From: Acidobacteriota bacterium
GTDB lineage: Bacteria; Acidobacteriota; Vicinamibacteria; Vicinamibacterales; UBA823
Reading direction: 5' to 3'
Assembly (NCBI GenBank): GCA_002730525.1
Contig: PCAK01000018.1
Coordinates: 1 to 42,644, forward strand
Length of the DNA stretch: 42,644 nt
The notes below the pieces were generated by a model. That model saw only the letters and a list, made by a program, of their open reading frames with translations. It was not told where the DNA came from and ran no database searches. Below are positions 11,737 through 17,773 of this stretch, piece by piece. Numbering within the stretch: position 1 is the first letter of the stretch; each line of letters starts with the position of its first letter. The translations under genes and the position numbers were made by a program.

Positions 11737-12240
11737 CTACGGTTCGTTGGCGGCGCGATGGTCGGTGCCCAGCGTCTCGAGATGCGCCTGCAGCACGTTG
11801 CGCACGTAGTCCTGCAGGTTCTCGGCGGTGCTGACCTCGAACGACTCGGCGTGCCACGTCGCGGCCATCACGGTCTCGCCGTTCGCCAGCGTGGCCGGCT
11901 GGAAGAGGCGGATGGACAAGTCGACCGCGAAACCGTCGGTGACCCGCGCCGGGTTGAGCAGGATCGAGAGGTAGGGGCCGTCGTCGGTGGCCTCGCCCTG
12001 TGCCAACTCCAGGTCGAGTTGGTCGACGCGGCGTTCGACGGTGTCGCGGACGTAGTCGGGATCGACCCCGCGCCGAGCGGCTCCGGGGTTCCGCGCCATC
12101 TCGATTTCGACCCGCACCGCGCCGAGGTCGCGCAAGGCCGCCTGCGACGGGCCGACCTGCGCTGTCGCCGCCGTGGCCAGGCTGGCCCCAACCACTCCGG
12201 CCATTCCCGTCATTGCCACCATTGCCATCCGCCGTCGCAT
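11737..12240 (-). CDS. Exported protein of unknown function
   Basis: 167 aa. Residues 1-27 form a signal peptide (MRRRMAMVAMTGMAGVVGAS... ending TAATAQ). The mature part is about 140 aa of mixed alpha/beta sequence without cysteines and with no motif I recognise; VEIEMARNPGA, YLSILLNPARVTDGFAVDLSIRLFQP and a C-terminal helix (AENLQDYVRNVLQAHLETLG) stand out. A periplasmic protein is likely. An AT-rich segment at 12385-12425, unusual for this region, lies upstream and could hold divergent promoters for this gene and the ilv operon. Confidence 0.7.
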   Translation of the reverse strand: MRRRMAMVAMTGMAGVVGASLATAATAQVGPSQAALRDLGAVRVEIEMARNPGAARRGVDPDYVRDTVERRVDQLDLELAQGEATDDGPYLSILLNPARVTDGFAVDLSIRLFQPATLANGETVMAATWHAESFEVSTAENLQDYVRNVLQAHLETLGTDHRAANEP

Positions 12241-12390: not shown

Positions 12391-12420
12391 TTGTGGTTAT
12401 AGAATCGTAAGAATTATAAA
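12391..12420 (+). promoter_or_regulatory. Candidate promoter of the ilv operon
   Basis: TTGTGG (12391-12396), 18-nt spacer, TATAAA (12415-12420), inside the most AT-rich stretch of the 12241-12691 gap. Transcription would begin near 12427, ahead of the leader reading frame at 12460. The -10 is good and the -35 only half matches. The complement of the same stretch contains TATAAT-like sequence and may serve the minus-strand gene. I see nothing further between 12241 and 12385. Confidence 0.45.
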
Positions 12421-12459
12421 TTTGACTAGATAGACGGGCCGCGGTGTAATGGGGCATCG

Positions 12460-12600
12460 ATGGATTCTGCGGGTTCCCGCCTCATCGGCTCTCGACTCGG
12501 TGCCGTCGTGTTGCGACGGTTGCCCGTCGCGCCGGTGCGCGTCGTGGTCATTACCAAGACCGGCACGGTCGTGCCGGACGCCGCGAACGGGATGATGTAG
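12460..12600 (+). CDS. Branched-chain-rich leader peptide of the ilv operon
   Basis: 46-codon open frame from ATG 12460 to TAG 12600, ending 26 nt before a terminator hairpin and 91 nt before ilvD. About a third of its residues are Val, Leu or Ile, clustered in the second half (LPVAPVRVVVITKTGTVVP), which is the signature of an attenuation leader. Its last codons (AAC GGG ATG ATG TAG) contain GGGATGATG, the exact complement of part of the terminator's first arm. The ribosome-binding site is weak (GGGGC just upstream). A shorter peptide starting at an internal GTG (for example 12535) would keep the Val/Ile control codons. The product would serve only as a sensor of charged tRNA. Confidence 0.7.
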   Translation: MDSAGSRLIGSRLGAVVLRRLPVAPVRVVVITKTGTVVPDAANGMM

Positions 12601-12638
12601 CCGCAGTCCAGATGAGTTAGAACTCAGGCCATCATCCC
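12589..12638 (+). promoter_or_regulatory. Antiterminator pairing segments of the ilv attenuator
   Basis: GGGATGATG (12589-12597) is perfectly complementary to CATCATCCC (12630-12638), the ascending arm of the terminator. Pairing of the two excludes the terminator. A ribosome finishing the leader at TAG 12598-12600 would cover the first segment. A ribosome stalled at the Val/Ile codons around 12532-12552 would leave it free. A further hairpin, CCGGCAC/GTGCCGG at 12560-12577, may act as a pause structure. Confidence 0.7.
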
Positions 12639-12660
12639 CGAGCGGATGATGGCCTTTTTT
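12627..12660 (+). terminator. Attenuator terminator before ilvD
   Basis: Perfect 11-bp stem GGCCATCATCC (12627-12637) / GGATGATGGCC (12644-12654) with a 6-nt loop, followed by TTTTTT (12655-12660). It is a textbook intrinsic terminator placed between the leader peptide and ilvD, so it can only make sense as a conditional (attenuation) terminator or as the end of a short leader RNA. Confidence 0.92.
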
Positions 12661-12691
12661 CGTATCAGCACCCGCAAGGAGACCCATCGCG

Positions 12692-14368
12692 ATGCCGAAG
12701 CCGCCCGTCCGCCGAAAGAGTGCCGCACTCGTTGAAGGCCCAAGCCGCGCGCCGGCCCGCGCCATGCTGAAGGCGGTCGGCTTCGACGATGCCGCGCTAC
12801 ACAAGCCGCTCATCGGCGTGGCGAACACCTGGATCGAGGTCGGGCCGTGCAACTACCACTTGCGGGAGCTGGCCGAGCGGGTCAAGGCTGGCATCCGGGA
12901 GGCCGGCGGCACGCCGATGGAGTTCAACACCGTTTCGATCTCCGACGGCATCACGATGGGCAGCGAGGGGATGCGCGCGTCGCTGGTCAGCCGCGAGGTG
13001 ATTGCCGACTCGATCGAGCTGGTGTCGCGCGCGAACTCGTTCGACGCGGTCGTCGTGCTGGTCGGCTGCGACAAGACGATCCCGGGCGGCGTGATGGCGC
13101 TCGCGCGACTCGATGTGCCGGGCGTCGTCCTGTATGGCGGTTCGATCGCACCGGGCACATGGGAAGGCCACGACGTCACGATCCAGGATGTCTTCGAGGC
13201 GGTGGGGGCCCACGCCGCGGGCAAGATCACCGACACGCAGCTGCTGACGCTCGAGAATCAGGCCTGCCCCGGTGCCGGCGCCTGCGGGGGGCAGTTCACG
13301 GCGAACACGATGGCGACGGTCTGCGAGTTCCTCGGGATCTCCCCGATGGGCTCGGCCAGCGTGCCCGCGACGGATAGTGGCAAGGATGCGGTCGCCGAGC
13401 GGACGGGCCAACTCATCATGGGCGTGCTGAACCGCGCGGACAACGCGCGGAAGATTCTGACCAAGGACGCCATCGAGAACGCGATCGCGGCCGTGGCGAC
13501 GACTGGCGGATCGACCAATGCCGTGTTGCACCTGCTGGCGATTGCGCGCGAAGCCGGGGTCGAGCTCTCGCTGGAGGATTTCGATCGGATCAGCGAGCGG
13601 ACGCCGCTACTGGCCGATTTGAAGCCTGGTGGGAGGTTCGTGGCGACCGATCTCTATCGCGCGGGCGGGATCACTCTGGTGGCGAAACGGCTCCTCGACG
13701 CCGGTTTACTGCACGGTGGCACGCTCACCGTCACCGGCCGCACCCTCGGCGACGAAGCCGCCGAGGCGAAGGAGACCGTGGGGCAGGAGGTGGTCAGGCC
13801 GCTCGACAATCCGATCAAGTCAACGGGTGGCCTGGTGATCCTGCGTGGCAATCTCGCGCCGGAAGGCTGTGTCGTCAAGGTCGCGGGTTACACGCGGCTG
13901 CATCACAGCGGGCCGGCCAAGGTGTTCGAGAGCGAGGAGGCGGCGTTCGAGGCGGTCGAGCAGGGCCGCATCGAGGCCGACGACGTCGTCGTGATTCGGA
14001 ATGAGGGTCCGAAGGGTGGTCCCGGGATGCGCGAGATGCTTGCCGTGACCGCGGCCATCGTGGGCGCGGGCCTCGGCGATTCGGTCGCGCTGCTGACCGA
14101 TGGCCGGTTCTCGGGCGCGACCCGCGGCCTGATGGCGGGTCACGTGGCACCCGAGGCGGTCGATGGCGGCCCGATCGCGGCGATCAGGGACGGCGACACG
14201 GTCGTCTTCGACATCGATCAGCGGACGCTCAGCGTCGAACTGAGCGACGGCGAGATTGCGGCGCGCGTCGCCGCGTGGCCGCGCCCCGAACCGCGATTCG
14301 CGACGGGCGTCATGGCGAAATACGCGCGGCTGGTGACCTCGGCGGCCACCGGCGCAGTGACCGGATAA
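12692..14368 (+). CDS. ilvD: Dihydroxy-acid dehydratase
   Basis: 558 aa, full length. It dehydrates 2,3-dihydroxy-isovalerate and 2,3-dihydroxy-methylvalerate to the 2-keto acids, the third common step of valine, leucine and isoleucine synthesis, in the cytoplasm. The iron-sulfur ligand cysteines are visible in GPCNYH (C53), [10 protein letters not shown] (C126) and [17 protein letters not shown] (C192/C198). Other family signatures are [27 protein letters not shown] and [19 protein letters not shown] lies 10 nt before the ATG. It is the first gene after the attenuator and 62 nt ahead of ilvB. The short form resembles archaeal/plastid-type IlvD rather than the roughly 610-aa enterobacterial type. 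Confidence 0.97.
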
Positions 14369-14430
14369 CGGGATGACGGGGTAGTGCCGTCGAGAAAGCA
14401 AGACGCCGGCTCGGGCCGGTGGAGGCAGTC

Positions 14431-16137
14431 ATGAAACGAACGGGCGCACAGATTCTCTGGGAAGCATTAATCCGAGAAGGCGTATCGACCGTCTTCGGCT
14501 ATCCGGGCGGCGCGATCCTGCCGGCCTACGACGCGATGCTGGAGTTCCCGATCAAGCACGTGCTCGTCCGCCACGAGCAGGGCGCGACCCACATGGCCGA
14601 CGGCTATGCCCGCGCCGGCGGCGGCGTCGGCGTCGCCGTGGCGACGTCGGGACCCGGGGCGACCAACATGGTGACCGGCATTGCGACGGCGATGCTGGAC
14701 TCGTCGCCCATCGTCTGCATCACGGGACAGGTCGGCAGCAAACTCATCGGCTCGGACGCCTTTCAGGAGACCGACATCACCGGCGTGACGCTGCCGATCA
14801 CGAAGCACAACTATCTGGTTAGCCGAGCGCAGGACGTGGCTCGGGCGGTGAAGGAGGCCTTCTACGTCGCCAAGTCAGGGCGCCCGGGACCGGTACTGCT
14901 CGACATCACGAAGGATGCTCAGCAGGCGAGCTGCGAGGTGGAGTGGGACGACTCGGAGGTGACGCTGCCGGGCTACCGGCCCGATCTGCGCGCCACGCAG
15001 GAGGTCTACCAGCGCGCGATCGACATGATCAACAACGCCAAGCGGCCGATCATCTTCGCCGGGCACGGCATCATGCTGTCGGGAGCGATGGAGGTCGTGC
15101 GCGCCCTCGCCGAGCGCGCGAACATTCCGGTGGCGATGACGCTGCTGGGGATCGGAGGCTTCCCCGCGAGCCATCCGCTGAACCTCGGGATGATGGGGAT
15201 GCATGGCGAGGCGTGGGTGAACTCGGCGATCCAGGAAGCGGATCTGTTGTTGGCGTTCGGCATGCGTTTCGACGATCGCGTGACCGGCAACCTGGCGACC
15301 TACGCGCAGAACGCGAAGAAGATCCATATCGACATCGACCCGGCCGAATTCAACAAGAACGTCAAGGTCGACGTGCCGCTGACGGGCGACCTCCGGCACG
15401 TGCTCGAGGAGATCCTCCCGCACGTCACCGAAGGCGATCGGTCGAGCTGGTTGAAGGCGATCGAGGCGATGAAGGGCGACTGCGCGGTCCGCGACATCCA
15501 GAACCTGCCCGACAGTGGGCACCTCTACGCCGCGCACGTCATCAACGATCTCTGGCGCGTGACCGACGGGGACGCCATCGTCGTGACCGATGTTGGCCAG
15601 CACCAGATGTGGGAGGCGCAGTACTACCACCACGACCAACCGCGGACGCTCATCACCTCGGGCGGGTTGGGGACGATGGGATTCGCGCTGCCGGCTGCGA
15701 TCGGGGCGAAGTTCGCCTGCCCGGACAAGGAGGTCTGGGCCGTCGTCGGCGACGGCGGGTTCCAGATGACCCAGGCCGAGCTGGCGACGATCGCCCAGGA
15801 GCAGATCAAGGTCAACGTCGCCATCATCAACAACGGCTACCTCGGCATGGTGCGCCAGTGGCAGGAGTTCTTCTACGACCGGCGGTACGCGGCCACGCCG
15901 CTGCTGAACCCCGATTTCGTCAAACTGGCCGAGGCCTACGGGTTGAGCGGCATGGCCGTCACCAAGCGGGCCGGCGTGGTGCCGGGCGTCGAGGCGGCGC
16001 GCGAGCATGCCGGTGCCGTCATCCTCGAGTTCAAGGTCGAGCAGGAGGACTCGGTGTTCCCGATGGTGCCTGCGGGCGCCGACCTCGACAAGATGATTAG
16101 GCGGCCGAGCCCAATTGTGGAGACTGCCGCAGACTAG
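14431..16137 (+). CDS. ilvB: Acetolactate synthase, catalytic subunit
   Basis: 568 aa from ATG 14431, placed by GGAGG at 14421-14425; an in-frame GTG at 14419 would overlap that site. It condenses pyruvate with pyruvate or 2-ketobutyrate using thiamine diphosphate, FAD and Mg2+. The N-terminal Pyr domain has [13 protein letters not shown] and the cofactor-activating glutamate in [16 protein letters not shown]; the central FAD-binding domain follows. The C-terminal PP domain has the thiamine diphosphate motif [16 protein letters not shown]...NVAIINN. The small regulatory subunit follows after 10 nt. Length and motifs are normal for AHAS large subunits. Confidence 0.97.
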
Positions 16138-16147
16138 GAAGACAGCT

Positions 16148-16714
16148 ATGCGCCATACCTTTGCCGTCCACGTCGAAGACACGCCCGGCGTGCTGAATCG
16201 CGTCGCCTCGCTCTTTCGGCGCCGGGCCTTCAACATCGAATCGCTGACCGTCGGCCACACCGAGACGGCCGGGGTCTCCCGGATGACGATCGTGGCCGAT
16301 ACCGACGACCACGGGGCGCTGCGGCTCGAAGCGAATCTCTACAAGCTCGTGAACGTGCTGCGCGTCGACGACATCACCGTGCGGCCGTCCGTTCAACGCG
16401 ACCTGGCGATGATCAAGGTGGCGGCCACGCCGGAGACACGGACCCATGTCATGCAGCTCGTCGACGTCTTTCGGGCGCGGGTGATCGACGTCGCGCCCGA
16501 CTCGGTGATCATCGAGGCGACCGGCCCGGAGGACAAGATCGACGGCCTCGTCGAGGTGCTGCGGCAGTACGGTGTCATCGAGATGGTGCGGACCGGGTGT
16601 GTCGCAATGGCGCGCGGTCCGAAGATCGGTGGGCTGGGCGATGGTGTCGAGCGCGGCACGCAAGTCGCCGACGAAGCGCCGGCCGACGACAGCAACGTAT
16701 CGTATTCTGTGTGA
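16148..16714 (+). CDS. ilvN: Acetolactate synthase, regulatory small subunit
   Basis: 188 aa from ATG 16148, ten nucleotides after the ilvB stop and preceded by AGGAAG. The N-terminal ACT domain (residues 1-76) begins RHTFAVHVEDTPGVLNRVASLF and includes RAFNIESLTVGHTE, the surface that binds valine for feedback inhibition. The C-terminal half (about 77-160) is the second ALS small-subunit domain. The last 25 residues are a variable tail. It activates IlvB and confers end-product inhibition. The name ilvN or ilvH is a matter of convention. Confidence 0.95.
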   Translation: MRHTFAVHVEDTPGVLNRVASLFRRRAFNIESLTVGHTETAGVSRMTIVADTDDHGALRLEANLYKLVNVLRVDDITVRPSVQRDLAMIKVAATPETRTHVMQLVDVFRARVIDVAPDSVIIEATGPEDKIDGLVEVLRQYGVIEMVRTGCVAMARGPKIGGLGDGVERGTQVADEAPADDSNVSYSV

Positions 16715-16759: not shown

Positions 16760-17773
16760 ATGGCAAAGATCTTCTACGACGATGCGGCGGACCTCGGGTT
16801 GATTCAGGCAAAGAAGGTGGCGGTGATTGGCTACGGGTCGCAGGGGCACGCCCATGCGCTGAACCTGAAGGACAGCGGGGTCAGCGTGAGGGTCGGTCTC
16901 CACGAAGGCAGCAAGTCGCGCGCCAAGGCGGAAGCCGATGGTGTCGAGGTGGTGTCGGTGGCCGATGCGGCCGCGTGGGCCGACGTCGTGATGATTCTGG
17001 CGCCCGACACCTCGCAGCCGTCCATCTACGAGGAATCCATCGCCCCGCACCTGACCGCCGGCAACATGATCATGTTCGGGCACGGGTTCAACATCCGCTT
17101 CAAGACGATCGCGCCGCCGGCCAACGTCGACGTCACGATGATCGCGCCGAAGGCGCCGGGGCACCGCGTGCGCGAGGTCTACCTGGAGGGTGGTGGCACG
17201 CCGGCGCTCCTGGCGGTCGAACAGGATGCGACCGGCGGGGCCAAGGCGCTGGCGCTCTCGTACGCGAAGGCGCTGGGCGTGACCCGCGCGGGCGTGATCG
17301 AGACGACGTTCGCGGAAGAGACCGAGACCGATCTCTTCGGGGAACAGGCCGTGCTGTGCGGCGGGGTCAGTGCGCTGACCAAGGCGGCGTTCGGCACGCT
17401 GGTCGAAGCGGGCTATCAGCCCGAGATCGCCTACTTCGAGTGCATGCACGAACTGAAGCTGATCGTCGACCTGATGTATCGCGGCGGGCTGAACTACATG
17501 CGCTACTCGGTGAGTGACACGGCCGAGCACGGTGACTACACCGGTGGGCCGAGGGTCGTCACCGACGCGACGCGTGACGCCATGCGGAAGATGCTGGCCG
17601 AGATCCAGGACGGCACCTACGCCAAGAAGTGGATCGACGAGAACGCCCAAGGCAGGCCATGGTTCAACGAGGTGCGGAAGCAAGAACAGAACTCGCAGAT
17701 CGAGCAGGTCGGCAGCTCGCTGCGGAAGATGATGCCGTTCCTCGACGCGGTCACGATCACTCCAGGCAGCTGA
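16760..17773 (+). CDS. ilvC: Ketol-acid reductoisomerase
   Basis: 337 aa, the short class I form. It isomerises and reduces acetolactate or acetohydroxybutyrate with NAD(P)H and Mg2+, the second common step of the pathway. The Rossmann loop [17 protein letters not shown] begins near residue 24, and the following SKSR suits NADPH. The knotted C-terminal domain carries the metal-binding acidic residues in DLFGEQ and in [16 protein letters not shown]. It starts 45 nt after ilvN and ends 2 nt before the next gene's start. The order D-B-N-C behind one attenuator gives the common enzymes of the pathway apart from the final transaminase, which is not in this window. Confidence 0.97.

Follow-up and report, generated by a model that had tools for sequence, protein, structure and literature searches.

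A predicted ribosome-mediated transcription attenuator upstream of ilvDBNC in a Vicinamibacterales genome and its relatives before other amino-acid operons

Does the region in front of the ilvDBNC operon of a Vicinamibacterales bacterium (Acidobacteriota) link expression of that operon to the supply of branched-chain amino acids (BCAAs)? The locus lies on contig C18 (PCAK01000018.1) of a 3.3-Mb draft genome (GCA_002730525.1), and the whole contig, 42,644 nucleotides, is referred to here as the window. Judging from its sequence and from comparison with relatives, we consider it highly probable (roughly 0.9) that the region upstream of ilvD is a ribosome-mediated transcription attenuator tying ilvDBNC expression to charged tRNA-Val (and tRNA-Ile). 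An earlier note on this DNA had labelled the element a translational attenuator; that label is wrong, the predicted regulation being ribosome-mediated transcription attenuation.

Anatomy of the leader

The attenuator consists of the following parts.

12460..12600, plus strand: leader peptide open reading frame (ORF) of 46 codons, MDSAGSRLIGSRLGAVVLRRLPVAPVRVVVITKTGTVVPDAANGMM, with ATG at 12460 and TAG at 12598-12600
12535..12552, plus strand: sensor codons V R V V V I, read from the translation, with equivalent Val/Ile runs in relatives
12560..12577, plus strand: hairpin P1 within the leader ORF, 7 bp (CCGGCAC/GTGCCGG), a probable pause hairpin
12589..12602, plus strand: antiterminator 5' strand, GGGATGATG-(TA)-GCC, which holds the leader stop and pairs with 12627-12638 in the minimum-energy fold
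12626..12660, plus strand: intrinsic terminator with a 12-bp stem (12626-12655), a 6-nt loop and T6, supported by fold and covariation

The Val/Leu/Ile-rich frame of 46 codons and its VRVVVI cluster are present as the earlier note had described them. The segment GGGATGATG (12589-12597) is the exact reverse complement of CATCATCCC (12630-12638) in the terminator 5' arm and a near copy of the terminator 3' arm. The perfect 9-nt match claimed before is thus real, but the pairing is longer than was claimed: it continues past the 2-nt TA bulge (stop codon) into GCC (12600-12602) paired with GGC (12627-12629), giving 12 pairs in total and accounting for the conserved TAGCC. Similarly, the T6 terminator was recognized correctly, but its stem has 12 bp rather than 11. 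The fold of 12600-12665 has a z-score of -3.8, and none of 200 dinucleotide shuffles was equally stable. Terminator and antiterminator share the arm 12627-12638 and are therefore mutually exclusive.

Switch behaviour in the fold model

Ribosome-constrained folds were computed at set transcript ends, with the size of the ribosome footprint taken from general knowledge. With RNA extending to 12640, the antiterminator pairing has a probability of 0.98 when a ribosome is stalled at Val28-Thr32 (codons 28-32) and of 0.00 when the ribosome stands at the stop codon; for a transcript ending at 12655 with the ribosome on the stop codon, terminator pairing reaches 0.999. Geometry and constrained folds agree that the antiterminator is covered by a ribosome standing at the stop but left free by one at the sensor codons, which supports the previous proposal that the two structures exclude each other and that ribosome position decides between them.

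In the mechanism we propose, transcription would start at about 12457 and a ribosome would load on the leader ATG, at the 5' end or close to it, while P1 would probably hold RNA polymerase briefly until the ribosome catches up. When Val- and Ile-tRNA are ample, the ribosome would reach the stop codon inside the antiterminator strand and cover that strand, so that the downstream terminator could fold and transcription would end near 12660. When they are scarce, the ribosome would stall at VRVVVI, upstream of the antiterminator strand, which would then be free to pair with the emerging terminator 5' arm, and polymerase would continue into ilvD.

Leader translation might instead gate ribosome access to ilvD, by translational coupling or translation attenuation. 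The leader and ilvD are 91 nt apart, and for Acidobacteria one paper has proposed reinitiation at leader genes (PMC4833913). However, the stem ends at 12655 and leaves uncovered the AGGAG site (12678-12682) that precedes the ilvD start at 12692, and the T6 that follows the stem belongs to a U tract conserved in relatives; we regard such gating as very unlikely.

Under transcription attenuation, P1 probably acts as an RNA polymerase pause hairpin. All 7 of its pairs are kept in 7/7 family relatives, with two double changes, but shuffles match this in 91/500 cases, so that covariation within the family is not significant. The case for P1 therefore comes mainly from a test on 130 loci, in which the hairpin before the antiterminator was stronger than codon-shuffled controls (p = 7e-19). 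Across these 130 loci, the 3' end of the hairpin at the P1 position lies a median of 11 nt ahead of the antiterminator, and the distance in the window is also 11 nt. A spacing of about 11 nt is that of known pause hairpins.

Distribution, conservation and covariation

A covariance model built from the ilvD upstream regions of 14 relatives (R1) identified the element in 89 of the 162 genomes searched in the order Vicinamibacterales (E <= 0.01), and a second model built from 100 sequences (R2) identified it in 92 of the 162 (E <= 0.001); minus-strand matches overlapping plus-strand ones were dropped as products of the palindromic terminator. In a sample of the phylum, 39 of 396 genomes matched at E <= 1e-4, 18 of them outside Vicinamibacterales. 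A model scan of 80 ilvD loci representing many phyla matched just four, all acidobacterial, and the other phyla yielded no credible match. The genome under study itself carries a second copy (C36:57356-57430, 72.7 bits) before genes for homoserine dehydrogenase and threonine synthase (hom-thrC), with a leader of the Thr/Ile type, MTQTRGTTATPNMMTATWIITLATPMRARQRRMM; the existence of this copy makes it very unlikely that the ilvD element arose by chance or was misread.

Upstream regions of ilvD from members of the genus, from other members of the family and from further families of the order contain the same parts at similar spacing, and operons headed by ilvD or pheA-ilvD in several families keep the leader ORF, antiterminator and terminator. 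The Val/Ile run is held in frame while the remaining peptide varies. The comparison of relatives that the earlier note had suggested thus showed frame and complementarity to be kept with compensating double changes, though not in every relative.

Covariation was computed on 99 distinct sequences; their relatedness weakens the following shuffle results as probabilities. In the terminator, to whose structure the alignment was fitted and towards which it is biased, 98.6% of cells are paired, 4 pairs show double changes (1/500 shuffles as high) and 10 cells do (0/500). For the antiterminator, to which the alignment was not fitted, 90.7% of cells are paired, with 34 double-change cells against 14.0 expected (0/500 shuffles). 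Pairing is preserved at antiterminator position 4, where A-U is replaced by G-C in 15 sequences, and at position 1, where C-G gives way to U-A (10 sequences) or G-C (6). Slid-register controls were 22.6-51% paired and support the register.

The position of the stop codon is equally constrained. Among 98 unambiguous leaders, i.e., loci with a single possible ORF, to which an unbiased choice of frame is confined, 94 end at one of two offsets in the element: 75 at offset 4, almost invariably with TGA, and 19 at offset 9, for the most part with TAG. Given these two offsets, GGATGATGTAG would be both the antiterminator and a stop box in two frames, a placement that fits the model of a ribosome at the stop covering the antiterminator.

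These data also bear on the simplest alternative, a constitutive terminator, or one belonging to another transcript, with a chance ORF upstream. Chance alone does give terminator-like sites here, 0.8 per shuffle of this region; however, the upstream neighbour of the leader (gene 11737-12240) lies on the opposite strand and needs no terminator here, and many families conserve antiterminator, stop position and Val/Ile run as a set. We judge this explanation highly improbable.

Several results weigh against attenuation by a translating ribosome. In the absence of any ribosome the fold model prefers the antiterminator, at 0.98 for RNA to 12640, which implies read-through of leaders that are not translated. 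A trp-type protector hairpin (1:2) sequestering strand 2 was sought in the fold model and none was evident; P1 (12560-12577) ends 11 nt before the antiterminator without overlapping it. The full-length RNA at equilibrium always prefers the terminator, which makes switch function dependent on timing. As the leader lacks a clear Shine-Dalgarno sequence, its translation depends on near-leaderless initiation. Finally, nearly half of the Vicinamibacterales genomes had no match at the threshold used, and none was obtained in several genomes where ilvD sits in a different gene context.

Sensor codons and downstream genes

To classify the genes behind the element, blastp clusters were used, and representatives were checked by NCBIfam. 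Homoserine dehydrogenase or aspartokinase-homoserine dehydrogenase genes follow at 44 loci, ilvD at 37 and pheA at 15; smaller classes comprise LysR regulators (5), ilvB (4), ileS (2), MFS transporters (2), ilvA (1), siroheme synthase (1) and others. In relatives, pheA ends just upstream of ilvD, which suggests a pheA-ilvD operon.

Leader composition follows the downstream pathway. Val/Ile leaders stand before ilvD, ilvB and pheA-ilvD (e.g., RPVVVVVSRVGVVITPTASG for ilvD and IIRIIAISIPG for ilvB), and Thr/Met leaders before hom (METMTTTTTTIGVDGRCG, MTRTTTITTGDSSGG). Ile leaders precede ileS (GIITPIGIPIGIIGAGIRV), ilvA (AAIIRIEAV) and, outside Vicinamibacterales, cimA (LTIIIGGLIILPGSGSG); ilvB/ilvN leaders outside the order include sequences such as LPVIVGIVIIVN, and a Cys leader precedes the siroheme synthase gene cysG (ICPICSCCCTTMM). 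At single-ORF loci, Thr makes up 20.2% of hom leaders versus 5.2% of BCAA leaders, and Val+Ile 10.9% versus 33.1%, with neither signal in the other two frames. None of 5000 label shuffles was as extreme, a figure that overstates significance because the species are not independent, although the contrast covers several families.

This in-frame correspondence argues against direct binding of an amino acid or tRNA by a riboswitch or T-box-like element. T-boxes typically occur in such a setting, with terminator and antiterminator ahead of BCAA and aminoacyl-tRNA synthetase genes; however, the part that senses is an ORF, its residues fit the pathway in that frame only, and a conserved aptamer-like region outside the hairpins is absent. 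The Rfam check that had been recommended was run and no family matched the attenuator at gathering or relaxed thresholds, in the window or in seven relatives. Direct ligand binding is accordingly hard to credit. Arrest by the nascent peptide, with the peptide itself rather than the codons sensing a ligand, would explain why leader C-termini are alike within a family (e.g., GVVITPTASG, VPDAANGMM). These C-termini overlap P1 and the antiterminator, though, and are hence constrained at the DNA level, and the sensor residues follow the pathway, changing to Thr, Ile, Leu or Cys, which leaves arrest a most improbable explanation next to codon-level sensing by a ribosome.

Further cassettes were observed in relatives. 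Cys-rich leaders (CVACCCRQDFVCG, ICPICSCCC) occur at L163 and L166 (genomes G011 and G033) and L154 (G001). The G001 copy lies upstream of siroheme synthase and the G011 copy close to a gene for a Mec/CysO-type peptidase; the cassettes of these three genomes are probable cysteine attenuators. Leu-rich leaders with the cassette stand before an ORF of about 90 aa (VWMDGRLQ...DVFDSGFGHDSGYGHGI) at L086, L087, L109 and L144; this ORF has no NCBIfam match and is apparently convergent with ilvC. At L268 and L270, loci from other acidobacterial families, the element has Ile-rich leaders and stands before the citramalate synthase gene (cimA). It also stands before LysR-family regulator genes (L060, L064, L104, L113, L128) with leaders that are mostly Val/Leu/Ile-rich, and these genes may encode BCAA regulators under attenuation. 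Copies before MFS transporter genes (L122, L139) show no clear amino-acid bias in the leader, and the leader of a copy upstream of glutamate synthase (gltB, L256) is unremarkable.

Relation to known attenuators

Most descriptions of leader-peptide attenuation come from Proteobacteria and Actinobacteria, and some from Firmicutes. The classical enterobacterial attenuators are those of E. coli thrL, ilvL, ivbL, leuL and trpL, and the thr leader mixes Thr and Ile codons. The acidobacterial element shares with them a leader ORF with pathway codons, mutually exclusive antiterminator and terminator, and a decision by ribosome position; it differs in having no evident protector hairpin, a stop inside the antiterminator strand, a near-leaderless start and one antiterminator/terminator sequence common to several operons.

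The attenuation logic is already known and is closest to that of the Mycobacterium tuberculosis ilvB1 and Corynebacterium ilvBNC devices. In M. tuberculosis, ilvB1NC, with ilvB first, has a 166-nt leader containing a BCAA-rich upstream ORF (uORF); there too the antiterminator is masked once the ribosome reaches the stop codon, so that the terminator forms, and stalling at LVVI frees the antiterminator (PMC13236596). That system belongs to another phylum, ilvD comes first here, and the passages of PMC13236596 consulted report no cassette shared with Thr or Cys operons. The Corynebacterium ilvBNC attenuator (ilvB-II uORF motif) has a leader peptide with Val/Leu codons and resembles the element in its three hairpins, BCAA-codon leader and overlapping terminator and antiterminator (PMC10272879, PMC11857589). 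Its first hairpin is a proposed anti-antiterminator, whereas P1 does not overlap the antiterminator, and the motif is limited to Corynebacterium, with 103 representatives (PMC11109978).

Premature intrinsic terminators upstream of genes have been predicted in the same phylum (Naville & Gautheret 2010, PMC2965389); in contrast to those predictions, function, sensor and family are assigned here. The ilvD motif WRC-18-2 is likewise a regulatory RNA before ilvD, but a different element: it is a weak riboswitch candidate of Veillonella only, with a terminator in some cases, and no leader ORF is mentioned in the consulted sections of PMC8632094. Acidobacteria are not mentioned in the main text of two structured-RNA surveys (PMC8632094, PMC11109978), and a literature search, with most subscription journals outside its reach, returned no description of the cassette.

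The novelty lies in the phylum and in the variety of operons concerned, in a common cassette whose sensor codons can be interchanged, and in a start that is probably leaderless. The cassette, GGRTGATG...CATYAYCC...GGRTGATGG-U tract, would serve with other sensor codons before hom/thr, ileS, ilvA, ilvB, pheA-ilv, cimA and probably cys genes. We tentatively hypothesize, at somewhat less than even odds, that it is one standard Acidobacteriota cassette, derived from a single ancestor and copied before several operons, in which the antiterminator is the stop box (TGA/TAG, two frames) and only the sensor codons (Val/Ile, Thr, Leu, Cys) of the leaderless ORF have been exchanged. Identity between cassettes of different operons in one genome (0.61) equals that between the same operon in different genomes (0.61), a comparison that does not separate descent from convergence. 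Recent duplication of the cassette is not favoured, as pairwise identity shows no excess within genomes.

Reuse of a single sequence across operons with exchangeable sensor codons is unusual. In roughly half of the searched genomes of a little-cultivated order, one element would account for how Val/Ile and Thr genes, and probably Cys and Leu genes too, are regulated, and it extends into other families of the phylum. The shared sequence makes the element searchable by covariance model, and leader composition would provide a read-out of the signal for uncharacterised downstream genes.

Operon, promoter and leader initiation

The controlled genes run in the order ilvD-ilvB-ilvN-ilvC, and all four are NCBIfam equivalogs above cut-off, in line with the operon assignment made before.

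12692..14368, plus strand: ilvD, dihydroxy-acid dehydratase, first controlled gene (TIGR00110, 693.6 bits)
14419..16137, plus strand: ilvB, acetolactate synthase large subunit (TIGR00118, 749.5 bits)
16115..16714, plus strand: ilvN, acetolactate synthase small subunit (TIGR00119, 186.1 bits)
16760..17773, plus strand: ilvC, ketol-acid reductoisomerase (TIGR00465, 439.5 bits)

The promoter-like boxes reported earlier are present, with their spacing kept in relatives, and a palindrome overlaps the first of them.

12422-12427 (-35) and 12445-12450 (-10), plus strand: sigma-70-type promoter TTGACT-17 bp-TGTAAT
12407..12427, plus strand: imperfect operator-like palindrome GTAAGAATTATAAATTTGACT, 21 bp, overlapping the -35 box, ilv-specific and outside the attenuator proper

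A mechanical promoter scan, which requires A at position 2 of the -10 box, missed the ilv promoter. From the promoter position, transcription is expected to start at about 12456-12458. The leader ATG in the window lies 9 nt past the -10 hexamer, and at many loci with a clear promoter this distance is 7-13 nt, so a 5' untranslated region of about 0-6 nt is expected; in family f9, the distance is usually 20-32 nt. These distances indicate that the leader mRNA is probably leaderless or near-leaderless, which poses a testable question, namely attenuation without a Shine-Dalgarno sequence. Canestrari et al., in 2020, reportedly described leaderless leader peptides in mycobacterial cysteine attenuators (cited in PMC13236596).

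The earlier note's reading of the locus as an attenuator is supported; P1, the bulged extension, the near-leaderless start, the palindrome, the hom copy and the sharing across operons had been overlooked. The palindrome GTAAGAATTATAAATTTGACT is unique in its own genome, even with up to 3 mismatches allowed. It recurs with at most 6 mismatches before 22/37 ilvD and 8/15 pheA-ilvD leaders, and sites before all 44 of 44 hom leaders have at least 8. Because it is unique and kept before ilvD and pheA-ilvD but not before hom, the ilv operon is probably also under the control of a repressor or activator.
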